Notes under the pieces: model-generated | Seen by the model: only the letters and a program-made list of their open reading frames with translations | What the model was told of the DNA's origin: nothing | Database searches by the model: none | NCBI RefSeq assembly: GCF_000381085.1 | Contig: NZ_KB905899.1 | Coordinates: forward strand, 62,001 to 126,000 | Source: Thiomicrorhabdus arctica DSM 13458 | GTDB taxonomy: Bacteria > Pseudomonadota > Gammaproteobacteria > Thiomicrospirales > Thiomicrospiraceae | Length of the DNA stretch: 64,000 nt | Direction: 5' to 3' | Translations under genes and position numbers: made by a program | Shown here: positions 7,111-54,825 of the stretch, piece by piece | How positions within the stretch are numbered: the first letter of the stretch is position 1 | Layout of the letters: every line of letters begins with the position of its first letter

Positions 7111-8469
7111 GTGATAAGTTACAAACGACGTAATTGGCGTGTGTTATGCAACGTGGCAGCGGCCTTGATGCTCAGTATTGCCTTGCCTATTCAAGCACAC
7201 GCAGAGCACCACTCCGGTTCGGTCACCACGGCTGGCCCCCAAGTGAGTTATTTTAATCAATTGGATCAAGCCGGGATTTTGCTGCTTAATGAAAAAACGG
7301 CCGTGTTGCAAGCTAAATCCGAACAACACCATTTTATTCCGGCTTCCACTACTAAGCTTTTAACGGCTTTATTAGCGTTACGCCATTGGGGGGCTGATTA
7401 CCGCTTTAAAACGGCTTTCTCGCTGGTAGAGGGTCGGGTCTCTTCGGGCCATGACGTAAATGAATCTATTGCGCCGGTATTGCTTGTGAAAGGCTATGGC
7501 GACCCGTTTCTTGTCTCTGAAGAGTTGGTTGTCATCGCTAAAGCCTTGGCAAAACGCCTAAATAAACGGGGTATTCATACGTTATCCGGCATTCAGTTGG
7601 ATACGTCGTATTTTGCCACTCATCTCAATATGCCGGGGGCTGGCGACAGTGATAATCCTTATGATGCCATTCCTTCCGCTTTAGCGGCTAATTTTAATAC
7701 GGTTTATGTTCGTAAAACGTCTTCAGGATTCGAGTCGGCAGAGCCACAAACCCCCATCACATTAACAGCCTTGCAAATCGCTCGGGACATTTCGCATTTT
7801 GAAAAGACGCCTGAGGGACTGATTAAACGCGTGAATTTGGGAACCGATGAACAGCTGGGGCAACGTTATTTTGCAGAGCTTTTAAGAGCCTTTCTGCGCA
7901 ATGAAGGAGTTACTGTTGCTCCTCAACTCAGTTGGAAAACGCCCTCTGAAAGGACGTCATTAGCAAAATCTAACCCAAACCCGTTGAACCCGTCTTCGAG
8001 GTTGTTGTATTTGCACGAAAACAGTCGGACTTTAGAGGATATGGTACGTCCAATGATGTTGTATTCCACCAACTTTGTGGCGAATCAACTGGCATTGGAT
8101 CTAAGTGCCGAACTGATGAGAGGTCCTGCCGATGAGCATTCAGTCGCCCAAATGTATCAGCAGACCTTAAAGAGTGTCTTTGGCTGGAGTGATTTTCATA
8201 TTGAAGATGGCGCTGGATTATCAAGAGAAAATCGCCTCTCACCAAGACAGTTAATTGACGTTTTAAGTGCTTTCAAACCCTGGAGACATCTCTTGCCTGA
8301 AGTTGAAAAAAATGTATTTGCAAAATCGGGCACATTATTAGGCGTGAGTACCTTGGCAGGGTATATCCATGCCGGCAATGAGTGGTATCCGTTTGCATTT
8401 ATGATCAATCAAAAAGTGCCATACCATTATCGAAACAGGTTGATTAAAGAGCTTAGTGAGCGGTACTAA
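7111..8469 (+). CDS. dacB: D-alanyl-D-alanine carboxypeptidase/endopeptidase, PBP4 type
   Basis: A class C penicillin-binding protein acting in the periplasm on peptidoglycan peptides and cross-links. The 452-residue product starts at a GTG with a strong AGGGAGG ribosome site upstream, followed by a signal peptide ending near AHA. All three catalytic motifs are present: STTK (Ser79-Lys82), STN (Ser319-Asn321) and KSG (Lys405-Gly407), with the long insertion between the first two that marks PBP4. It is monocistronic. An exact copy of the ACCAGGCCTGGT palindrome begins 5 bp after the stop and may serve in termination. Confidence 0.9.
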   Translation: MISYKRRNWRVLCNVAAALMLSIALPIQAHAEHHSGSVTTAGPQVSYFNQLDQAGILLLNEKTAVLQAKSEQHHFIPASTTKLLTALLALRHWGADYRFKTAFSLVEGRVSSGHDVNESIAPVLLVKGYGDPFLVSEELVVIAKALAKRLNKRGIHTLSGIQLDTSYFATHLNMPGAGDSDNPYDAIPSALAANFNTVYVRKTSSGFESAEPQTPITLTALQIARDISHFEKTPEGLIKRVNLGTDEQLGQRYFAELLRAFLRNEGVTVAPQLSWKTPSERTSLAKSNPNPLNPSSRLLYLHENSRTLEDMVRPMMLYSTNFVANQLALDLSAELMRGPADEHSVAQMYQQTLKSVFGWSDFHIEDGAGLSRENRLSPRQLIDVLSAFKPWRHLLPEVEKNVFAKSGTLLGVSTLAGYIHAGNEWYPFAFMINQKVPYHYRNRLIKELSERY

Positions 8470-8472
8470 AGT

Positions 8473-8490
8473 GACCAGGCCTGGTCGTTT
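8473..8490 (+). repeat. iterated palindrome, exact copy, downstream of dacB
   Basis: ACCAGGCCTGGT at 8474-8485, widened to a 14-bp perfect palindrome by flanking G and C and followed by GTTT. It starts right after the dacB stop codon, a position where it could act as a terminator. Confidence 0.8.
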
Positions 8491-8582
8491 CTGATAAGAG
8501 CTTTCATCATAAAATCTATTTAGGATGAATACTTTCGATGATAATAGCCTTTTAGATCAGTTTCGAGTAATATACGCACCCT

Positions 8583-8964
8583 AAAGTGGGTTGGACAACC
8601 GCGGGGGTGTTTACACCTCGGAGGAAAGTCCGGGCACCATAGAGCAGGATTCCAGCTAACGGCTGGGCGGTGAGAGCCGACGGACAGTGCAGCAGAAAAT
8701 ACACCGCCGATGACTCGCTTGCGAGAACAGGTAAGGTTGAAATGGTGCGGTAAGAGCGCACCGCGCTTCTGGTAACAGAAGTGGCAGTGAAAACCCAATT
8801 CGGTGCAAGACCAAATAGGGAAACGCCGTGGCTAGGCTTGTCTTAGTCACAACCTGCTGCTCGCAGGAGTTTCCGGGTAGGTTGCTTGAGGCTGGCAGTG
8901 ATGTCAGTCCAGATGAATGGTTGTCGCTCGCAAGAGTACAGAACCCGGCTTATAGACCCACTTT
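8583..8964 (+). ncRNA. rnpB: RNase P RNA, bacterial type A
   Basis: The catalytic RNA that matures the 5' ends of tRNAs. Recognised from the near-invariant GAGGAAAGTCCGGGC (8621-8635), the ACAGTGCAGCAGAAAATACACCGCC block, the GGTAAGGTTGAAA...GGTAAGAGCGCACCG region and a 3' part with AGAACCCGGCTTATAGACCCACTTT. The 5' AAAGTGGGT (from 8583) pairs with ACCCACTTT near the 3' end (to about 8964), closing helix P1 and setting the ends. This gives about 382 nt, close to the E. coli length. A TAATAT -10 element lies at 8568-8573. A T-rich tract follows the 3' end. An ORF spanning part of it is a shadow. Confidence 0.95.
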
Positions 8965-9423
8965 TCCTTTTTCTTTTAGATGGAATGTCTCAATTCCTCT
9001 TCCGTTTCAAGCCTCTTATACAAATCTCAAAATTTCTTTAGAGAGACCTGTTTGCAGTTGCACATGGGTCAACTTCTATTTTTTGTTTTGTGGTAAAAAT
9101 CCCCACCTTATTTTCATTTTTATCGAATAAATTAAAAAAATCCCCACTTTATATTAAAAAGTTTTTCAGCGAGTTTTCATCCTCAATATAGTGTGTCTTT
9201 AATTATATTAATAGCATCATGTTGTATTTTGTGCCAGGTATTCCTTGTGTGTAATTTTACTTAATATAGGACAACGCCTTGATGATGCCTATTAATAAAT
9301 AATTTTCATGTTGCTCCTATCTAATTGATTAATAAGGTATTAAGTAATTATTAATTGTTTATCTTTATCTTCCAAAAGAGTCCTAAGTTGTTGTCTTGTA
9401 ATGGAAAATCTCTATTTACAAGG
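8965..9423. other. long AT-rich intergenic region between rnpB and mraZ
   Basis: About 460 bp without a credible gene. It holds a direct repeat of the sequence AAAATCCCCAC (near 9098 and 9137), then very AT-rich DNA around 9310-9370. An ORF (8828-9130) starts inside rnpB and has no family resemblance. I see no tRNA or riboswitch. Confidence 0.5.
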
Positions 9424-9452
9424 TTGACAGTGGGGTCTATTGGTCATATAGT
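9424..9452 (+). promoter_or_regulatory. mraZ (dcw cluster) promoter
   Basis: A near-consensus sigma-70 promoter: TTGACA (9424-9429), a 17-bp spacer, then TATAGT (9447-9452). It lies 42 bp before the mraZ ATG and runs into the MraZ-type repeats, so repressor binding would cover the start site. Confidence 0.85.
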
Positions 9453-9490
9453 GGTGCCAAGTGGTGAAAAGTGGCGAAAAGTGGAAATAA
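9451..9490 (+). promoter_or_regulatory. four-copy MraZ operator
   Basis: Four direct repeats beginning GTGG start at 9451, 9461, 9471 and 9481, exactly 10 bp apart; the middle two read GTGG(T/C)GAAAA. MraZ, a DNA-binding ring protein, is known to bind short direct repeats with about this period just upstream of its own gene. The first copy overlaps the -10 element and the last overlaps the ribosome site. Confidence 0.8.
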
Positions 9491-9493
9491 ATC

Positions 9494-9952
9494 ATGCTTT
9501 TTTTTAGAGGAATCAATTCGGTCAATATCGATATTAAGGGACGCATGGCCGTGCCTAAAAAGTATCGTGAAGCGATTTCTGACGCCAGTGATAACCAACT
9601 GGTCGCCACCATTGATTTACACAGTCCGTGTATATTGATTTATACATTGGATGAATGGGAAGTCATTGAGCGTAAATTAATGGCATTACCGAACGTTAAT
9701 CCGCAAAACCGTTTATACCAGCGTCTATTGTTAGGGCACGCAACTGAGATGGAAATTGATTCTCAGGGACGTATCTTACTGCCAAGCCTGCTTAGAGAGC
9801 ATGCCAAAATAGATAAGCCAGCGATTTTATTGGGCCAAGGGAATAAGTTTGAGCTTTGGTCACAAGAAGCTTGGGATGCAAGTTGTCCTGAGATGCTAGA
9901 AACCGCCATGACGAATGAAATTTCTGAGTCATTAGCCAGTTTAAGTTTATAA
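9494..9952 (+). CDS. mraZ: transcriptional regulator MraZ
   Basis: First gene of the dcw cluster; a DNA-binding protein that represses its own operon in E. coli. The 152-residue product has the two SpoVT/AbrB-like halves with the duplicated motif: DIKGRMAVPKKYRE near the N-terminus and DSQGRILLPSLLRE in the second half. The ATG at 9494 follows a purine-rich GTGGAAATAA that is also the last operator repeat, so binding may hinder translation as well as transcription. rsmH follows after 18 bp. Confidence 0.96.
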   Translation: MLFFRGINSVNIDIKGRMAVPKKYREAISDASDNQLVATIDLHSPCILIYTLDEWEVIERKLMALPNVNPQNRLYQRLLLGHATEMEIDSQGRILLPSLLREHAKIDKPAILLGQGNKFELWSQEAWDASCPEMLETAMTNEISESLASLSL

Positions 9953-32390: not shown

Positions 32391-33248
32391 ATGCAAAGTA
32401 CGGCAGTTGAATTACATACAAACAATAAAACGATTGGTAGTCTTCTTTTAGAAGCAGGAAAAATTAGAGCAGAAGATGCAGATAGAATCATCAAAGCGCA
32501 AAAACAATATGATCTAAAATTTGGGGATGCAGCCGTTTTATTAGGCCTCATCACTCAAGAAGACATTAGACATATCGTCTCACAGCAATTTGATTTCCAC
32601 TGTCTTTCTCGTGAGGATAATACGGTAGACAAAAGCGTAATTGCGGCATTTCAGTCATTTGGGTACGATGTTGATACTCTGAGAGGGTTGAGAAGTCAAC
32701 TCTCTTTAAGATGGTTTACTGGTCATAAATTATTGGTCATTGCACCTGTCATTGGCAAAACTGGGGCAAGTTACATTGCCGCTAATTTGGCTGTGTTATT
32801 TTCACAGCTGGGTCAAAAGACATTATTAATTGATGCTGATATGCGTCAGCCTCGCCAATCAAAGCTATTTAAGCTTAAAAATAAAGCAGGTTTATCTGAT
32901 CTTTTAGCAGATAGAGCTGGCTTAGAGGTTATTGAAACGCACTCTAAATTAACCAACTTGTCTTTAATGTCTTCTGGAACCATCCCACCGAATCCTATAG
33001 AGCTATTAGGTCAGTCCAAAATTAAAAATATTTTGAGTGAATTACAAGCTCATTATGATGTGATCTTATTGGATACACCTGCCATATTAGAACATTGTGA
33101 TGCTCAAACATTATCGGCGATTTGTCATGGCACTATGTTAGTCGCAAAACGGCATTCAACTCGCGTCTCAGCGATTGAAAAAGCAAAACAAAAGGTTCTT
33201 GTCGCCGGTGCATATCCCGTCGGTGTTGTGCTTAACGAGTTTAAATGA
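32391..33248 (+). CDS. epsG: EpsG-like tyrosine-kinase-related ATPase with altered P-loop
   Basis: Cytoplasmic partner of EpsF, resembling the BY-kinase/ParA ATPase domain of EpsG. Residues 1-105 resemble the EpsG N-terminal domain (IGSLLLEAGKIRAEDADRII, FGDAAVLLGLI). The ATPase part has the Walker A' strand LLIDADMRQPR, the LSLMSSGTIPPNPIELL motif and VILLDTPA. The loop that should carry the Walker A lysine reads GKTGASYIAANLA, with Ala before the Ser, and the C-terminus lacks a tyrosine cluster. So kinase activity is doubtful, though structural function is plausible. Overlaps xrtB by 4 bp. Confidence 0.8.
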   Translation: MQSTAVELHTNNKTIGSLLLEAGKIRAEDADRIIKAQKQYDLKFGDAAVLLGLITQEDIRHIVSQQFDFHCLSREDNTVDKSVIAAFQSFGYDVDTLRGLRSQLSLRWFTGHKLLVIAPVIGKTGASYIAANLAVLFSQLGQKTLLIDADMRQPRQSKLFKLKNKAGLSDLLADRAGLEVIETHSKLTNLSLMSSGTIPPNPIELLGQSKIKNILSELQAHYDVILLDTPAILEHCDAQTLSAICHGTMLVAKRHSTRVSAIEKAKQKVLVAGAYPVGVVLNEFK

Positions 33249-34165
33249 GATTGAATATGAGCCGTTTAGACGTCTATAAAAACAAGAAGGTATTGATTTG
33301 GCTTCCAATTATTGCCGGGTTAATCTTTTTATTTACACCCACCTACATTGAGCTTTACCATATTTTCTGGTCTAAAGATGAGCAAGGGCATGGCCCTTTA
33401 GTCTTAGTCATTGCGTTGTTTCTTTTTTGGCAAAAGAAAGAGTTGTTTTTAAAGGACCGCGAGCTTACGGGACAATCTACCCTAGGTTGGTCGCTCCTTT
33501 TTATATCACTTATTGTTTATATTTTAGCTAAGTGGCAATATATTCTTGTCGCCGAAGTTGCCGTTCAAATTCCAATATTAATAGCGTTAATTTTGATTAC
33601 TTCTGGCTATTCTGTTCTAAAGCGTTTGTGGTTTCCGCTATTTTTTCTAATATTCATTGTGCCATTACCAGGTAGTGTTGTGGACGCCATTACCATGCCC
33701 ATGAAAATAGCAGTTTCCAATGTCGTAGAGATGGTGCTCTATAACTTTGATTATCCTATTGCTCGTGACGGCGTCATTCTACAAATAGGCTATTACAAGC
33801 TTTTGGTCGCAGATGCTTGTGCCGGATTGCATACGGTTTTCTCTTTAGAGGCGATGGGACTCCTTTATTTACACCTTGTCAAAAGAGACTCTTTTTTACG
33901 TAATGTCTCTTTGGCCATGCTGATCATCCCGATTTCTTTTGTGGCCAATGTAATTCGAGTCATTGCTTTGGTGCTTATCACTTATTATTATGGCGACGAA
34001 GTCGGGCAAGGATTTTTACATGAATTTGCTGGTTTTGTTTTATATGGCACCGCGCTGATTTTTATTATCTCTACGGATATTTTTTTACAAAAACTCGAGT
34101 TAAAGTTGGCTCAAAAGAAAGCCCGTAGAGCAGCCACCGAGGAGAGTGACATTGACAGTTTTTAA
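33245..34165 (+). CDS. xrtB: exosortase B (XrtB)
   Basis: A polytopic inner-membrane cysteine transpeptidase-like enzyme predicted to recognise PEP-CTERM tails and anchor or process those proteins. The 306-residue protein has about eight membrane segments and the proposed catalytic triad: Cys192 in VADACAGLHTVFSLEAMG, Arg238 in NVIRVIALVL and His259 in FLHEFAGFVLY. Its stop overlaps epsI. A PEP-CTERM protein lies at 51.7 kb. The B subtype is inferred from the EpsDEFGL neighbours. Confidence 0.9.
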   Translation: MRLNMSRLDVYKNKKVLIWLPIIAGLIFLFTPTYIELYHIFWSKDEQGHGPLVLVIALFLFWQKKELFLKDRELTGQSTLGWSLLFISLIVYILAKWQYILVAEVAVQIPILIALILITSGYSVLKRLWFPLFFLIFIVPLPGSVVDAITMPMKIAVSNVVEMVLYNFDYPIARDGVILQIGYYKLLVADACAGLHTVFSLEAMGLLYLHLVKRDSFLRNVSLAMLIIPISFVANVIRVIALVLITYYYGDEVGQGFLHEFAGFVLYGTALIFIISTDIFLQKLELKLAQKKARRAATEESDIDSF

Positions 34166-34832
34166 AAGTTCTCTTATTTTTTTCCTCTTAATTGGTTCTC
34201 TAATTTTTTCTGAATTTATACGACCGGTGCCTAACTCTGTGGACGTTCAGGATTTTCCGAGTCTAGAATCTTCTATCCCGATTTCATTTGAAGGTTGGCA
34301 CAGTATCAACCAAGGCTTGCCGCAAATTGTCGACCCTCAGGCAGAAAAATCACTCGATGCTATTTATTCACAAACCTTATCTCGTATCTATGTTGATAAG
34401 CAGCAAGAGAAAATAATCTTATCCCTTGCTTATGGTCCGAATCAGACAGAGCCTCTTCGCGTCCATAAACCTGAGGTTTGTTATCCGGCGCAAGGCTTTA
34501 ATATTGAAAGCAATGAAGTTGGACAGCTTGAAGTATCAGGTCAAGAAATACCGGTCAAGTTTTTAAAAGGTGTCAGTTCTGACTATACCGAATTTGTAAC
34601 GTATTGGATTGTGGTTGGTGGAGTGGCGGTTGCAACCGACCTGGGTTTTAAACTTCAACAGTTTAAGTTTTCTTTAGATGGCAAAATCCCAGATGGTCTA
34701 CTGTTTAGAGTTTCAAGCCACGGGCAGGATGCAAAAGCTGAATATCAAAAACAAAAACGCTTTGTAAATGATTTAATTAATAACGTTGATTTAGAAACCA
34801 GAAAAATTTTACTGGGTGAATACAGTCGCTGA
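34146..34832 (+). CDS. epsI: exosortase-associated protein EpsI (DUF3485)
   Basis: A 228-residue membrane-anchored periplasmic protein found beside or fused to exosortases; its function is unknown. One N-terminal membrane segment (about 7-22) is followed by a periplasmic domain with the family motif RVHKPEVCYPAQGF (Cys and His) and a central YWIVVGG. The start is a GTG at 34146 or a TTG at 34152; the latter has better spacing from GAGGAG. It is the last gene of the tight epsD-epsI run. Confidence 0.85.
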   Translation: MTLTVFKSSLIFFLLIGSLIFSEFIRPVPNSVDVQDFPSLESSIPISFEGWHSINQGLPQIVDPQAEKSLDAIYSQTLSRIYVDKQQEKIILSLAYGPNQTEPLRVHKPEVCYPAQGFNIESNEVGQLEVSGQEIPVKFLKGVSSDYTEFVTYWIVVGGVAVATDLGFKLQQFKFSLDGKIPDGLLFRVSSHGQDAKAEYQKQKRFVNDLINNVDLETRKILLGEYSR

Positions 34833-34972: not shown

Positions 34973-36187
34973 ATGAAAGTTGCTGTCGCTGGAACAGGTT
35001 ATGTTGGTTTGTCTATTTCGATGCTTATTTCGCAAAATCACAAGGTCGTTGCCCTCGATATTATTCCCGATAAAATCGCGTTACTTAACCAAAAAAAGTC
35101 TCCGATTGCTGATGTTGAAATAGAAGATTTTCTCGCCAATAAAACCCTAGACTTCACCGCAACTCTTGATAAACACCTCGCATATGCCAATGCCGAATAT
35201 GTCATTATCGCGACGCCAACGGATTACGATACGGCAACTAATACCTTTAATACGGGTTCTGTTGAAGCCGTGATCAGTGATGTGCTTGCCATTAATCCAA
35301 GTGCGATTATGATTATAAAATCGACTGTCCCGGTAGGTTATACGGATCAGGTTAAAGCCAAATTTAGCTGCGACAATATTCTATTCTCTCCTGAGTTTTT
35401 AAGAGAGGGCAGGGCACTACATGACAACCTTTATCCTTCTCGCATTATTGTGGGAGAGGTCTCAGAACGCGCCAAGATATTTGCTGATCTATTAGTTGAA
35501 GGGGCCCATAAATCTGCAGATGAAATTCCTGTATTGTTTACCAACAGTACAGAAGCCGAAGCAGTTAAACTATTCTCAAATACGTATTTAGCGATGCGCG
35601 TCTCTTACTTTAATGAACTAGACACCTACTGCGAAAGTCACGGTTTGAGCTCAAGACAAGTCATCGAAGGGGTAGGGTTAGACCCTCGCATTGGTAACCA
35701 TTACAACAATCCTAGCTTTGGTTACGGCGGTTACTGTTTGCCAAAGGACACCAAGCAATTATTGGCTAACTACCAAGATGTTCCCAATAATATTATTCGC
35801 GCGATTGTCGACTCTAATACGACTCGTAAGGACTTTATTGCTGAGCAAGTGATTAAAAAATTGCAAAATGACCCTGCGTTTAATATTCAAAGCCAAGTCC
35901 CAATAACGGGTACGGTGGGTATCTACCGTCTGGTTATGAAACAAGGCTCAGACAATTTTCGAGCCAGTGCTATTCAAGGCATTATGAAGCGCCTAAAAGC
36001 AAAAGGGATTGAGGTCGTTATTTACGAGCCTGTTCTAGAAGAAAGCGAGTTCTATCACTCAAAAGTCATTCAAGACCTACAGGACTTTAAAAAACAAAGT
36101 GATGTTATTCTCGCCAACCGTATGATCAAAGAGTTGAGTGATGTCGCGGATAAAGTGTATACCCGTGATTTATTTGGAAACGACTAA
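34973..36187 (+). CDS. ugd: UDP-glucose 6-dehydrogenase
   Basis: Oxidises UDP-glucose to UDP-glucuronate with NAD, giving an acidic sugar donor for the polysaccharide. The 404-residue protein matches the short E. coli-type Ugd: the NAD motif [38 protein letters not shown], the [16 protein letters not shown] region and the catalytic loop [13 protein letters not shown] (Cys255). A GAGAAGGG site precedes the ATG. It has its own promoter and starts the sugar-specific half of the locus. Confidence 0.93.
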
Positions 36188-47015: not shown

Positions 47016-48023
47016 ATGATGTTCATCAAAACGATAGGCATTTTTTTAATCACCTTGGCAAATCTTACGAATGTATATGCAAGCTCAGAGATCGCATCGT
47101 GTTCAAAACCCATCGCAGGCATTAACCTTGCCGGCGCTGGTTTTTCATCCGGTAAAATTCCGGGTAGAGTCGGTTACGATTACAAATTCCCTAACTCTGT
47201 GCAATTACTTTATTACAAATCTAAGGGCTTCAAGGCTGTTCGTCTTTCTATATTATGGGAGCGACTGCAACCTAATCTCTATTCTGAACTAGACCCTGAT
47301 TATTTAAATGAGATTAAAATTTTTCTAAAAAAAGCAGAAGGGAGTGATTTATTGGTTTTACTCGATCTTCACAACTATGGTCGCTATAAAACAAAGCTCA
47401 TCGGTTCTAAAGATGTGCCAGAAGATGCCTTCTATGATATCTGGAACAGAGTCGCTCAAGCCCTCCACAGTTATCCTTCGCTTTATGCTTATGGTCTCAT
47501 GAATGAACCTCATGATACTAAGGGGTATTGGCATAAGGTCGCTCAATCGGGAGTGGATGCTATTAGAGCCGTAGATAAAAAGAAAGTGATTTATGTGCCT
47601 GGTGAGTTTTGGTCGAGTTCATGGAAATGGCCTAAGGCGAACCCCAAACCCTTTGTGTCGGATCCACAAAATAAGTTAGTGTATGAAGCTCATATCTATT
47701 TTGATAGACACTCTACGGGGGCTTATAAAAATCCAAATGAAGTCCTTAAACAAGGTGATGTGGCCAAAAGAGTGATGCCCTTTATTACCTGGTTAGAAAA
47801 ATACCATTTAAAAGGAGCCATTGGTGAGTGGGGTGTTCCTACCTCTTCGAAAGCTTGGTTTCCTGTGGTCGGTGAATTTATGACTTTAGCAAATGAGCAC
47901 TGTTTGGATTGGTATATCTGGGCAGGAGGTCAATGGCCTCAACACTACTTTATGTCTTTAGAGCCAGTTAACTGGAAAGATAAACCTTTGACAACCTTTT
48001 TGTCTAAAAAGCTCAAAAATTAA
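47016..48023 (+). CDS. secreted glycoside hydrolase family 5 (endoglucanase-like)
   Basis: A 335-residue exported glycanase. The signal peptide ends at VYASS. The GH5 TIM barrel has GFKAVRLSILWERLQP, LLDLHNYGRY, the acid/base in GLMNEPHD (Glu164), HIYFD and the nucleophile in AIGEWGVP (Glu271). A GGAG site precedes the start. Its place inside the locus suggests it trims or releases the polysaccharide, a common arrangement in Wzx/Wzy clusters; digestion of external glucans is the alternative. Confidence 0.9.
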   Translation: MMFIKTIGIFLITLANLTNVYASSEIASCSKPIAGINLAGAGFSSGKIPGRVGYDYKFPNSVQLLYYKSKGFKAVRLSILWERLQPNLYSELDPDYLNEIKIFLKKAEGSDLLVLLDLHNYGRYKTKLIGSKDVPEDAFYDIWNRVAQALHSYPSLYAYGLMNEPHDTKGYWHKVAQSGVDAIRAVDKKKVIYVPGEFWSSSWKWPKANPKPFVSDPQNKLVYEAHIYFDRHSTGAYKNPNEVLKQGDVAKRVMPFITWLEKYHLKGAIGEWGVPTSSKAWFPVVGEFMTLANEHCLDWYIWAGGQWPQHYFMSLEPVNWKDKPLTTFLSKKLKN

Positions 48024-51244: not shown

Positions 51245-51728
51245 TCGAACGCCGTGAACAACCACTTCAATACGCACCGATCATTATTTCCTGTCTAAAC
51301 CTTCCTGCCAAAATAGCTGGATTCAAAAATTAAAACTGCATTTTGGTGAAATCTAACACTCATGTAAATGTGCAGACTTGCAGTGTCGTTAAATATCTAA
51401 CTTGATTAGACTCCTTAAAGTAAATCGTACGACCATATCTTGATTTAATTTAATTTAAATCACTGTCTTGAGACAAAAAAATAGTTAATTTGTTATTTTT
51501 ACGTATACTAGTGCTTAAATCTACTAGTGTAGTGGTTGACGTGAATTCATCGTTTAGATGATTCTTGCATTTGAAATATACGCTTAGGTATAAAAATAAT
51601 AATTCAAAGTCTTACAGACAGCTCTCCGGAAACAGCTTCTAAATTATTTAGCTATGCTTAACATTCGATAAAATGTCTTTTAAGCCTTTAAATTAAAATG
51701 ATTCAAATTTTAAATTTAAGGAATTTAT
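51245..51728. other. 484-bp gap upstream of the PEP-CTERM gene
   Basis: AT-rich. Contains a direct repeat of TACTAGTG (51506-51513 and 51522-51529, 16 bp apart), a TTGACG at 51536 and a better candidate promoter at 51565-51594. I find no gene and no clear sigma-54 site. Confidence 0.5.
51565..51594 (+). promoter_or_regulatory. candidate promoter of the PEP-CTERM gene
   Basis: TTGCAT, 18-bp spacer, TATAAA (51589-51594); leaves a leader of roughly 125 nt before the ATG at 51729. Confidence 0.4.
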
Positions 51729-52367
51729 ATGAAATTTTCTAATCTATTCAAAACCTTTAGTGCCTTTATCTTGGGCCTTTCTCTTTTATCCATTTCGGCA
51801 CAATCTCAGGCGGCATTTGACTTGACACTAAAGGATCAGCCAGATGTGGTGTCCTATTTTTCGGACGTTACGTACAATGCTGGACTGGATTCTTTGTCCG
51901 TGAACGGATTTGCACAAGAACTCAATTCTGTGCTCTCGCATACCATCAATAACGGAACATTTTCCTTAAATGCAAGCATCAATGATTTAGGTAACTTTTC
52001 GAGTGGAACCTTTACGATAGGCGGGACCATTGCAGATTTAGCCTATACTTCAGGTACGTTGTTAACAGGTATATTGAATAACTTTAGTTTTAATAATACT
52101 GAAACACTTCAGTTTACGTTTGACACAACAGGTGGTGATGCTGCAGGTCTTTATTCTGGTTTAGGCGGTATTATTTTGGCAGACAGTGGCTTTAGCGGCA
52201 GTTTTTTATCAGATTGGAATAATACGGGTGGCGTAACGGGTACTGGCGCAGCCATGTCTGATACAGGTGTTGTGAGTGCGGTTCCTGAACCTAGCACTTA
52301 TGCCTTATTTGCTTTGGGTTTGTTGACTGTATTCGGCTTTGCTCGTCGATCCGCTAAGCAAGTTTAA
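51729..52367 (+). CDS. PEP-CTERM sorting-domain protein
   Basis: A 212-residue exported protein and a likely exosortase substrate. The signal peptide ends near AQSQA-AF. The mature part is rich in Ser, Thr, Gly and Asn and probably beta-stranded; I recognise no enzyme domain. The C-terminus is a textbook PEP-CTERM: VPEPST (Pro186-Glu187-Pro188), a hydrophobic helix (YALFALGLLTVFGFA) and a basic end (RRSAKQV). XrtB at 33.2 kb would process it. The next gene follows after 15 bp with GGAG, so the two are probably one operon. Confidence 0.93.
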   Translation: MKFSNLFKTFSAFILGLSLLSISAQSQAAFDLTLKDQPDVVSYFSDVTYNAGLDSLSVNGFAQELNSVLSHTINNGTFSLNASINDLGNFSSGTFTIGGTIADLAYTSGTLLTGILNNFSFNNTETLQFTFDTTGGDAAGLYSGLGGIILADSGFSGSFLSDWNNTGGVTGTGAAMSDTGVVSAVPEPSTYALFALGLLTVFGFARRSAKQV

Positions 52368-52382
52368 TCCATAGGAGTAGAT

Positions 52383-53999
52383 ATGAAAACTTCTATGTTA
52401 AAAATGAAATTACTGGGTATTGTGAGTGCATGTATTTTAACCTTTGGTGTGGTCAATTCTGCACAGGCCACCTTATTACCACTTCCAAATTTAGTTTTAC
52501 CTTTAGTTGCTTTTGATAATACAGGGACGACTAAATATGATCCATCGACGGGTATTATAGAGACGGATGCATTGCCTATTGCAGTACGCTTCTCAGCAAC
52601 AACGGCGCCGCATTTTATTAATCCAACGGCAGGAAGTGAGCATGTGTTCATTAATGTCAAAGTCGATAGCTCAGGTAATTTAATGAGTGGCGTACCGGGT
52701 GATGATCTCGTTATTACCGGTGAAGTAGACAGTAATGGTGATGGTATTGCGGACTATGCAGGGACACTGCTGACGGCTGAAGTATTAGAGTTTGGTTTTC
52801 AAAATGACGGTACGAATGACCTTTACAATTACACCTTCTCGGTAACTGGTGGGGCCTTAGCCCCTCTATACCCAACGGGTAATGTTGGTTTATCCGTCAT
52901 TAGTGAACTTTCTACATTTACTGATTTTACAGTGCCTTTTACCGGTCGTTCTAAAGGGACGATTGGTGGGGTTCCCAGCGTAGTGACTGAGTGTAAAATT
53001 GATATTTTGGGTACTTGTGTGGTCGAAAAAGCGCCAGAAGAATCAACCTGTAATGCCAAAATTTCGGCAACAACGCTTAAGTATACAGGGCCGACGATCT
53101 ATGGTGCATTGGTAGAGTTGATTGGTAAAAATGAAGGTTATGCCTCTTATTCAACAGACTTGATTTCAGGTGAAACCATTTTGGTTTCACCTGAACAAAA
53201 TGGCTATACCATTGATGGTCGACCAGGTGATTTGGGTTCTAAATTAAGCGTCTTTATTAATGGCGAAGAAGAGTTGCTTCATACCAGTTGTTCTGTGCCT
53301 TATACCGTTGGCATGCCTGCACCAATAAATGGAGGTTCAAGTGATGGCAAGGGTTCTAAAGATTCTGATAAAGGTTCTAAAGACTCACACAAACGCTCTA
53401 GATACGCAGCCAAGGGTTCAAAGCATTCATACAAAGAGTCTGAAGATTCTGAAGAGTCAGATAAAACAAACGATCACGTTTCATCAAACTGGATGGTTGT
53501 TGCTTTTGTAGATAAATTGGGCGAAGTGGTTGAAATGACAACTTCTGAACCAGCTTTAACGTGTGAGATACCTGCCAATCGTTCAAGTACTGTGCTTTAT
53601 GGTTTTACTGTGACAAACTCTGGTCATTCTGTGATTGACAGCGCTGATGTGATTGATTCATTTGGTGTTGTGCCGAACAGTCCCTTAGGTGTACTAAATC
53701 CTGGTGATTCAGCGACATTAGAGCGCACGCAAGTGATCTCTGAAGAAACTGAAAATGTGGTTTCAGTGACAGGTCACTCAGCTTTTGCAACTTGTGAGAA
53801 TCTAACGGCCGTGACCGTTCACCAAGCAGAAGCAAGTGATTCTGATAAGGGATCTAAAGATAAAGGCTCAAAAGGTTCTAAGGGCAAAGGTTCTAAAGAT
53901 AAAGGCTCAAAGGGTTCTAAGGACAAAGGTTCTAAAGATAAAAACTCAAAGGGTTCTAAGGACAAGGGTTCTGAAGATAAAGGCTCAAAAGATAAGTAG
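52383..53999 (+). CDS. secreted protein with Gly-Ser-Lys-Asp-Lys repeat tail
   Basis: A 538-residue exported protein of unknown function. The signal peptide ends at AQA-T. The first ~225 residues form a Gly/Asp-rich beta-type domain with a DSNGDGIADYAG motif that could bind calcium. A Cys-containing module (STCNAKISATTLKYTG... LGSKLSVFINGE... LHTSCSVPYTVG) resembles repeated domains of secreted bacterial surface proteins. A charged linker rich in GSKDS follows (about 318-360), then a second beta module (EPALTCEIPANRSS...). The tail (485-538) is encoded by a 39-bp tandem repeat, has excess lysine, and no PEP-CTERM or lipid signal. Confidence 0.75.
   Translation: MKTSMLKMKLLGIVSACILTFGVVNSAQATLLPLPNLVLPLVAFDNTGTTKYDPSTGIIETDALPIAVRFSATTAPHFINPTAGSEHVFINVKVDSSGNLMSGVPGDDLVITGEVDSNGDGIADYAGTLLTAEVLEFGFQNDGTNDLYNYTFSVTGGALAPLYPTGNVGLSVISELSTFTDFTVPFTGRSKGTIGGVPSVVTECKIDILGTCVVEKAPEESTCNAKISATTLKYTGPTIYGALVELIGKNEGYASYSTDLISGETILVSPEQNGYTIDGRPGDLGSKLSVFINGEEELLHTSCSVPYTVGMPAPINGGSSDGKGSKDSDKGSKDSHKRSRYAAKGSKHSYKESEDSEESDKTNDHVSSNWMVVAFVDKLGEVVEMTTSEPALTCEIPANRSSTVLYGFTVTNSGHSVIDSADVIDSFGVVPNSPLGVLNPGDSATLERTQVISEETENVVSVTGHSAFATCENLTAVTVHQAEASDSDKGSKDKGSKGSKGKGSKDKGSKGSKDKGSKDKNSKGSKDKGSEDKGSKDK
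53850..53996 (+). repeat. 39-bp coding tandem repeat (3 full copies plus a 30-bp partial)
   Basis: Units start at 53850, 53889, 53928 and 53967; each full unit encodes 13 residues of the pattern GSKDK-GSK-GSKDK. Differences between units are mostly single bases. Copy number could vary in frame. Confidence 0.85.
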
Positions 54000-54022: not shown

Positions 54023-54056
54023 AAAATCACCATCAGAAATGCTGGTGATTTTTTTT
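54023..54056 (+). terminator. intrinsic terminator after the repeat-tail gene
   Basis: AAATCACCA / TGGTGATTT stem with a 10-nt loop, continuing into a run of T. It ends the PEP-CTERM operon before the membrane protein gene. Confidence 0.8.
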
Positions 54057-54132
54057 GTATAAAATTTAGGTTTTCGATGGTAACTGTACCCTTTAACTTG
54101 GATTTAAACTTAAAATTAAGATTGGAATTGTG

Positions 54133-54825
54133 ATGGAATTAACTATTCAACCGATGAAAGTTTCCAAAATTATGTTGAGTATTATTGCAGTATTAGCGTT
54201 ATTACATATTACTCAGGTTAGCGCGTTTTTATACATTGGTGATAAAGAGGTGTTTGACTGGATCAGAATGTTAGATTTTGATTACGAAGGTAATTTGCCA
54301 ACCCTGTATTCGTCAGGTGCTCTTGGCTTGAGTGCTTTACTGTTATGGGTCATTAGCCGTCACCGAAAGCAGATGAGACAAGATTATCGACACTGGTTGG
54401 TTCTGTGTTTTATTTTTATTTTTTTGGCATTGGATGAAGGAGTGGTTATTCACGAAAAAATAGGTGACCTTACCGAGCAATATATCAATGCAAGTGGTTT
54501 TCTGTATTTTGCTTGGATCGTGCCTTACGGTATTTTGATGACTGTATTTGTACTCAGTTATCTCAAGTTTTTATTTCAACTCCCTAGAAATACGGCGATT
54601 CAAATGGTGATCGCAGGGGTATTATTTATCACTGGAGCCGTCGGTTTAGAGATGTTTAGTGGCGTTGAAGCAGAACTTCACAATACATCCACGATTAAAT
54701 ATACTGTTTTATATACCCTTGAAGAGTTGCTGGAAATGATTGCGATTGTTATCTTTGTGAATGCGCTCTTAAAGTACATTGGTCGTGAAATCGGGGACAT
54801 CACTCTGGATGTACAAAATAGGTGA
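54133..54825 (+). CDS. polytopic membrane protein of unknown function
   Basis: A 230-residue protein I do not recognise. I chose the ATG at 54133, with GGA upstream; a GTG at 54130 is adjacent. About six membrane segments are visible. Polar residues recur at segment edges: LALDEGVVIHEKIG in the third, GLEMFSGVEAELHN after the fifth and YTLEELLEM in the sixth. The Asp-Glu...His-Glu pattern could form a metal or catalytic site within the membrane. It follows the PEP-CTERM operon but lies beyond a strong terminator, so it is probably transcribed alone. Confidence 0.65.
   Translation: MELTIQPMKVSKIMLSIIAVLALLHITQVSAFLYIGDKEVFDWIRMLDFDYEGNLPTLYSSGALGLSALLLWVISRHRKQMRQDYRHWLVLCFIFIFLALDEGVVIHEKIGDLTEQYINASGFLYFAWIVPYGILMTVFVLSYLKFLFQLPRNTAIQMVIAGVLFITGAVGLEMFSGVEAELHNTSTIKYTVLYTLEELLEMIAIVIFVNALLKYIGREIGDITLDVQNR

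Follow-up and report, generated by a model that had tools for sequence, protein, structure and literature searches.

The system closest to the locus analyzed here is the PEP-CTERM/exosortase system of the XrtB type, represented by the models TIGR02595, PF07589 and TIGR03113. To our knowledge, the roles of PEP-CTERM proteins after sorting and the retention of unsorted proteins in the matrix are largely open questions. In the Sdr/Clf adhesins, the beta-domains are followed by an SD-repeat stalk, a charged, serine-rich low-complexity segment that leads on to the wall anchor. A third point of comparison is the flocculation protein PepA (NF033554; PMC9850573), a small secreted PEP-CTERM protein of an exopolysaccharide (EPS) system, whose overproduction in an rpoN1 mutant is described there as lowering soluble EPS and raising bound EPS.

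We analyzed a 64,000-nucleotide stretch of the genome of Thiomicrorhabdus arctica DSM 13458 (G000), to which we refer as the window. It shares with the XrtB-type system a PEP-CTERM protein (the product of gene 1, which is small and secreted like PepA) and the genes of XrtB, B-type EpsI and EpsD. It differs from that system in the adjacent gene 2, whose product ends in a tail of charged repeats in place of the sorting tail. Unlike the SD-repeat stalk, this tail terminates the protein. The C-terminal and middle parts of gene 2 are weakly similar to DUF7507 (PF24346) and DUF7467 (PF24269), respectively, the similarity being below cut-off or indirect. Among the open-access papers retrieved on PEP-CTERM, exosortase and matrix proteins, no title or abstract opening describes this gene pair. 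The pair amounts to a natural experiment in which one domain occurs both with a sorting tag and, in the neighboring gene of an operon-like arrangement, without it, and it makes the fate of sorted and unsorted matrix proteins testable in one strain.

Organization of the locus

The features of the window to which we refer below are as follows.

33245-34165, + strand: exosortase B (XrtB), the presumed processing enzyme of gene 1 (TIGR03113, 367.7 bits over 275)
34146-34832, + strand: EpsI, B-type (NF045609, 222.7 bits over 220)
34973-36187, + strand: Ugd, UDP-glucose 6-dehydrogenase (TIGR03026, 334.1 over 189.8)
51729-52367, + strand: gene 1, secreted protein of 212 aa that carries the shared domain and PEP-CTERM (Pfam, NCBIfam, profile A2)
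52278-52349, + strand: PEP-CTERM motif of gene 1 (PF07589, over cut-off)
52373-52377, + strand: AGGAG ribosome-binding-like site in the gap before gene 2 (read from the sequence)
52383-53999, + strand: gene 2, 538 aa, without PEP-CTERM (ORF list, Pfam, NCBIfam)
52383-52469, + strand: probable Sec signal peptide of gene 2, aa 1-29, cleavage after AQA (judged by eye)
52455-52988, + strand: shared N-terminal domain of gene 2, aa 25-202 as aligned (alignments A1/A2)
53043-53321, + strand: DUF7467-like module of gene 2, aa 221-313 (resembles a G058 protein that carries PF24269)
53325-53486, + strand: charged GSKDS-type linker of gene 2, aa 315-368, net charge 0
53583-53798, + strand: DUF7507-like domain of gene 2, aa 401-472 (PF24346, below cut-off)
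53835-53996, + strand: GSKDK-type C-terminal tail of gene 2, aa 485-538, net charge +9
53853-53991, + strand: tandem array of gene 2, 39-bp (13-aa) unit, 3.6 copies (Tandem Repeats Finder)
54031-54047, + strand: terminator-like hairpin and subsequent T run, 3' of gene 2 (consensus scan)

The original prediction described gene 2 as a secreted protein that has no sorting tail and is encoded next to a PEP-CTERM gene. The ORF is present at the coordinates given there, the latter two points hold, and the signal peptide is probable. In gene 1, a signal peptide (assigned by eye) and the shared N-terminal domain are followed by a PEP-CTERM motif that exceeds the cut-offs of both PF07589 (28.3 bits over 20.7) and TIGR02595 (23.9 over 16), and the gene ends 15 bp upstream of gene 2. 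No PEP-CTERM model of Pfam or NCBIfam matches gene 2 at E ≤ 1. The two genes had also been placed in one operon. The 15-bp spacing and the AGGAG site agree with this, but the hairpin does not add to it, as the scan returned two terminator-type sites against a shuffle mean of 2.3. Hence, the operon status rests on spacing. A sigma-54 promoter before gene 1 was considered and dropped: the consensus, with up to two mismatches, finds no site in the upstream region 51245-51728, and its 40 matches across the window are at chance level (mean 35.7).

The exosortase B and ugd genes that the prediction had named are likewise present. The TIGR03026 match identifies Ugd as a nucleotide-sugar dehydrogenase; its best model, UDP-glucose 6-dehydrogenase NF011631, scores 638.4 bits where 757 would be required. 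Together with B-type EpsI, EpsD (over cut-off), EpsL (267.6 against 275) and an EpsG-like kinase (290.3 against 313.8), the latter two being strong matches just under the cut-off, these genes lie about 15-24 kb upstream of the gene pair. G000 contains a single match to the exosortase model TIGR02602 and five places that exceed the Pfam cut-off for PEP-CTERM. At a lax E-value, PEP-CTERM matches turn up in 13 of 14 control genomes, but none of the 14 has one over cut-off. We also noticed that the polysaccharide cluster includes a secreted-looking enzyme of the GH5 cellulase family (window 47016-48023; PF00150, 136.3 bits), and that the EpsG-like kinase (window 32391-33248) has an N-terminal match to the MshE-type c-di-GMP-binding domain of 37.5 bits against a cut-off of 38. 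Elsewhere in G000, two similar small PEP-CTERM genes are neighbors on the minus strand (L047:6828-7424 and 8047-8679); by eye they are unrelated to genes 1 and 2.

The repeat tail of gene 2

The 54-residue tail contains 19 K, 9 D and 1 E, and the excess of positive charge noted in the prediction (+9) is therefore real, as is the GSKDS-type linker in the middle of the protein, which differs from the tail in carrying no net charge. The body segment, aa 26-310, has a net charge of -21. Three full units and a partial one make up the array (91% matches, score 229), so that "about four" units was a fair description. At a lag of 39 bp the DNA identity of the array is 0.829, as opposed to 0.719 (sd 0.026, maximum 0.795) in shuffles of synonymous codons, none of which reached the observed value in 2000 trials. 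The array is thus more than a by-product of an amino-acid repeat and looks to have been duplicated in tandem at the DNA level. Among 106 ORFs from five stretches of G000 (non-overlapping, at least 100 aa, chosen longest first, and some of them perhaps not genes), the last 50 residues of gene 2 rank first both for low entropy (2.11 bits, with 3.38 for the next ORF) and for the proportion of charged residues (54%, with 38% for the next).

The remainder of the protein is harder to classify. The DUF7507 model matches the whole protein with E = 0.0012 and 19.3 bits, and the isolated segment with 21.9 bits, against a cut-off of 27. PF24269 (cut-off 27 bits) gives no direct match in window 53010-53339, and the middle module is connected to it only via the G058 protein. 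NCBIfam assigns no family to the whole protein at E ≤ 1, and no type I secretion (T1SS) C-terminal target domain was found in it. Two AlphaFold predictions from the window sequence alone had mean pLDDT values of 32.7 and 33.3 and did not yield a confident structure. The PDB sequence searches returned one match, which at E 0.53 is not meaningful, and the plasmid search returned none.

An array with the same GSKD core is found in another protein of G000:

L009:9713-10480 (G000, C1:1824713-1825480, contig end): GSKD[N/T/D] array, immediately followed by a C-terminal target domain (T1SS_VCA0849), the protein being truncated by the contig end

Here the array is an internal linker, with N, T or D in the position of the second lysine of the GSKDK unit, and it is followed by the target domain TIGR03661 (24.4 bits over 17.6). 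An Oceanospirillaceae MAG likewise has an ORF with a GSKDN/GSKDK array, which runs off the contig edge. L007 was set aside, as it seems to be a frame that is open by chance across a GQGQQ repeat.

Both GSKD arrays would suit an explanation in which the gene 2 tail is a low-complexity extension, prone to slippage and close to neutral, that serves as a spacer or aids solubility and binds nothing. The tandem duplication at the DNA level and the variation of tail sequence and net charge between lineages (see below) point the same way. On the other hand, a spacer at the extreme C-terminus connects nothing, and in three lineages charged segments flank the last domain, which is unexpected from drift alone, one of the domain matches being weak. 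This recurrence mildly disfavors pure neutrality, and we regard such an explanation as doubtful, though it is to be taken seriously.

Genes 1 and 2 share an N-terminal domain

As judged by profile comparisons, genes 1 and 2 are paralogues via a common N-terminal domain. Alignments A1 and A2 consist of gene 2 rows and A5 of gene 1 rows, and the independent evidence is that each finds the opposite gene. In a search of the whole of G000, profile A2, which contains no gene 1 rows, picks up gene 1 at E = 1.7e-7 (1.2e-5 with A1); A5, which contains no gene 2 rows, picks up gene 2 of G000 at 4.3e-12. The neighboring gene 1 was found in the same way with A1/A2 in G051 (1.0e-7), G788 (1.1e-9), G787 (9.8e-9) and G786 (5.2e-6), and gene 2 was found with A5 in G051 (1.4e-13 and 5.1e-12) and G157 (2.4e-14). 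A direct comparison of the A2 and A5 profiles with hhalign gives 99.2% and E = 1.8e-19. No family model of Pfam or NCBIfam matches the shared domain above cut-off; its weak match to T1SS_rpt_143 has 13.1 bits against a cut-off of 66.05.

Homology of the shared domain to PepA was rejected. The PepA model NF033554 (cut-off 80 bits) matches full-length proteins only, with 33.8 bits over 83-224 of the G157 gene 1 product and 18.6 bits for that of the window. With the sorting tail removed, none of six gene 1 domains (a set that did not include G051) matches any model, and none of four gene 2 domains matches it. Hence, the PepA likeness of gene 1 rests largely on the tail.

In a tree of 16 rows, the seven gene 1 rows fall together across one branch, which has support of 98/98 and is contained in 99% of the bootstrap trees. 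The unrooted tree has long branches for gene 2 of G074 and gene 1 of G051, and five of its forks are open. Such a clean separation suggests that the duplication is older than the sampled lineages, which it appears to predate. The charged-tail rows group into one clade in only 34% of bootstrap trees.

Distribution of the pair

The single-sequence search found matches in six of 369 genomes of the class; as G058 was matched in the middle module only, the N-terminal domain is present in five of these. Profile A2 also matched six of the 369, namely G000, G051, G074, G118 and G157, which are its own rows, and the new G320, which was reached via gene 1. Only G000 itself was found in the phylum sample (1/398) and in the search of its order (1/62). 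The order of G157 gave matches in four of 11 genomes, and the orders of G051 and G118 gave one genome each, namely G051 and G118 themselves. The gene 1 profile A5 matched five of 330 genomes: its own rows G000, G051, G157 and G320, and, marginally, G136 (E = 2.8e-4, at a contig end), which is left out of our counts. In total, nine genomes carry a gene 1 or a gene 2 of this kind.

Adjacent same-strand pairs that share the domain are found in six genomes from three families (G000, G051, G157, G786, G787 and G788), with one gene 1 and two copies of gene 2 in G051. With every frame taken to begin at its first start codon, the gaps between the two genes are 15 bp in G000, 101 in G051, 28 in G157, 2 in G788, -4 in G786 and 2 in G787. 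The prediction that the gene 2 product is a partner of the sorted protein is thereby strengthened, since the two genes are homologous via their shared domain and are adjacent in other genomes as well. G118 has a looser adjacent pair with a gap of 2 bp, the first gene of which shows no significant similarity to the domain and was omitted from alignments A3 and A5. In the sequence examined, neither G074 nor G320 has a pair: the domain gene of G074, cut by the contig end, comes after an aminotransferase-like ORF, and gene 1 of G320 has no adjacent gene 2 domain, a charged-tail fragment being located on the other strand in convergent orientation.

Within the genus, an exosortase is present in six of 32 genomes and the gene pair in one. 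The distribution is patchy and the pair may have moved as a unit. In partial stretches of the five other exosortase-bearing members, a motif pattern detects a PEP-CTERM-like ORF in two (G006 and G007), and no ORF has a low-entropy C-terminus.

The ends of genes 1 and 2 in relatives

A sorting tail over the curated cut-off is present on gene 1 in four of eight genomes, as PEP-CTERM in G000 and as VPLPA-CTERM in G786-788 (TIGR03370, 28.4-29.6 over 25.35). It is below cut-off in G157 (19.4), G320 (20.4) and G118 (16.2); in G051 no sorting-tail model matches gene 1, and the likeness is by eye only. By eye, gene 2 of G157 and G786-788 ends in IPEP or LPEP, a hydrophobic stretch and arginines, but all four score below both PEP-CTERM cut-offs (13.6-18.4 against 20.7 and 10.5-15.5 against 16). 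In G788, G787 and G786 (L038, L039 and L040), a VPLPA-CTERM over cut-off on gene 1 thus accompanies a PEP-CTERM-like end below cut-off on gene 2, and the two genes may belong to different sorting classes.

The other gene 2 ends in view are charged; that of G074 is cut off by the contig end. Copy 1 of G051 ends in GKGKKK (+1 across the last 20 residues), copy 2 of G051 has a KDKDK tail of net charge 0, and G118 has an acidic end (-10 across the last 30 residues). In the G320 fragment, which lies at a contig end, a truncated SD linker precedes a domain that resembles DUF7507 (24.5 bits, cut-off 27), after which comes an SD/SE/SR tail of net charge -15; the fragment is related by architecture only, since the shared N-terminal domain is not in view. 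In G051 copy 2, the domain that separates the linker from the tail resembles that of the window (BLAST E = 3.7e-4, database of five sequences) and scores only 11.5 bits for DUF7507. Both G051 copies carry DUF7507 over cut-off (38.7 and 28.8 bits), but ahead of any linker. The arrangement of charged linker, domain and charged tail is seen in three lineages, G000, G051 (copy 2) and G320 (the fragment), each time with other repeat sequences, and the net tail charges are +9, 0 and -15, respectively. The domain is DUF7507-like with weak support. On these comparisons, the recurring property is the presence of charged sequence of low complexity, both C-terminally and in the linker before the last domain, not the sign of the charge; positive charge as a conserved property of the tail is ruled out by the tails of net charge 0, -15 and -10.

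These values bear on the mechanism put forward in the original prediction, in which the tail, with its surplus of lysines, would attach to an acidic polysaccharide containing uronic acid and so hold the gene 2 protein by charge. The tail is the basic part of a protein with an otherwise acidic body, and ugd is located in the same cluster. However, the corresponding tails of G051 copy 2, G320 and G118 do not preserve a positive charge, ten acidic residues are interspersed among the lysines of the tail in G000, and the uronic acid of the polymer is a prediction from the presence of ugd. As the variable sign disfavors a conserved lysine-to-uronate mechanism, the comparison lends no support to this part of the prediction, and we now consider it unlikely, though within this one strain the +9 tail may still bind a uronic-acid polysaccharide.

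Alternatively, the tail might direct the protein to a different export or modification system, such as glycosylation of the serine-rich repeats. Every repeat unit contains a serine, and a weak similarity links the tail of G051 copy 2 to the SD repeats of SdrC (27.6 bits, with a cut-off of 1700), but at E ≤ 1 the whole gene 2 protein has no match to a sorting model, be it of type I secretion or of another kind, and such a role seems very improbable. The paralogous domains and their close linkage would also fit a gene 2 protein held solely by pairing of its shared domain with that of the gene 1 product, the tail having no anchoring role. Homology does not show physical contact, though, and the PEP-CTERM-like ends (below cut-offs) of gene 2 in G157 and G786-788 perhaps offer another route, so that retention by pairing alone is improbable.

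A candidate role for gene 2

The window itself contains the shared domain, the two genes in close linkage, the PEP-CTERM motif of gene 1, the charged tail of gene 2, and exosortase B with EPS genes. The reading that we favor, with a probability of roughly 0.38, is that the gene 2 product is an unanchored matrix subunit held by its sorted paralogue and by its hydrated, charged tail. An old tandem duplication would have given rise to two related secreted proteins of the exosortase/EPS system. The gene 1 product would be sorted by XrtB and thus attached to the matrix or the surface, and the gene 2 product would be made along with it and secreted, but not sorted. It would then be kept in the matrix by pairing with the related domain of the gene 1 product, and its hydrated, disordered and charged tail might add weak multivalent contacts to the matrix. 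Whole 39-bp units could be gained or lost, which would alter the length of the tail without disturbing the reading frame.

Retention of gene 2 as an unanchored subunit is favored by the homology of the domains, the separation of the paralogues in the tree, their adjacency, the recurring linker-domain-tail arrangement, and the presence of XrtB and EPS genes, as well as by the precedent of PepA, whose overproduction shifted EPS from soluble to bound. It is weakened by the sorting tail of gene 1, which is over cut-off in only four of eight genomes, by the fact that the pair is not universal (G074, G320) and that the G118 neighbor has no similarity to the domain, and by the low DUF7507 score of the linker-tail domain in G051 copy 2.

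A broader evolutionary version of this reading, which we consider distinctly unlikely, is that one paralogue keeps the sorting tag and the other has swapped its anchor, with tag-like ends in one lineage and charged tails after the last beta-type domain elsewhere. The charged tail would then provide non-covalent retention in the matrix through charge density and hydration rather than sign. What is new in these comparisons is the status of genes 1 and 2 as a paralogous pair and the variation of gene 2 ends by lineage.

Neighboring open reading frames

The ORF downstream of gene 2 (window 54130-54825) is membrane-protein-like and has no family model over cut-off; by eye, an LDE..HE motif is common to its relatives. 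The class search matched it in six of 339 genomes including G000, G051 not being among them. A G051 homologue about 3 kb downstream of the G051 pair was found at E = 2.2e-4 in a ten-protein database. In three of the five other matching genomes (G207, G115 and G202) no gene pair was seen near the homologue, as judged from mechanically chosen non-overlapping ORFs, a choice that hid the G207 homologue itself. As G051 went unmatched in the class search and no pair was seen in these three neighborhoods, this ORF is not counted as a third gene of the unit. Beside the T1SS protein of G000 with the GSKD[N/T/D] array there are two adjacent, similar ORFs (L009:6783-8132 and 8314-9627), which by eye resemble Ser/Thr kinases with Sel1-type repeats.
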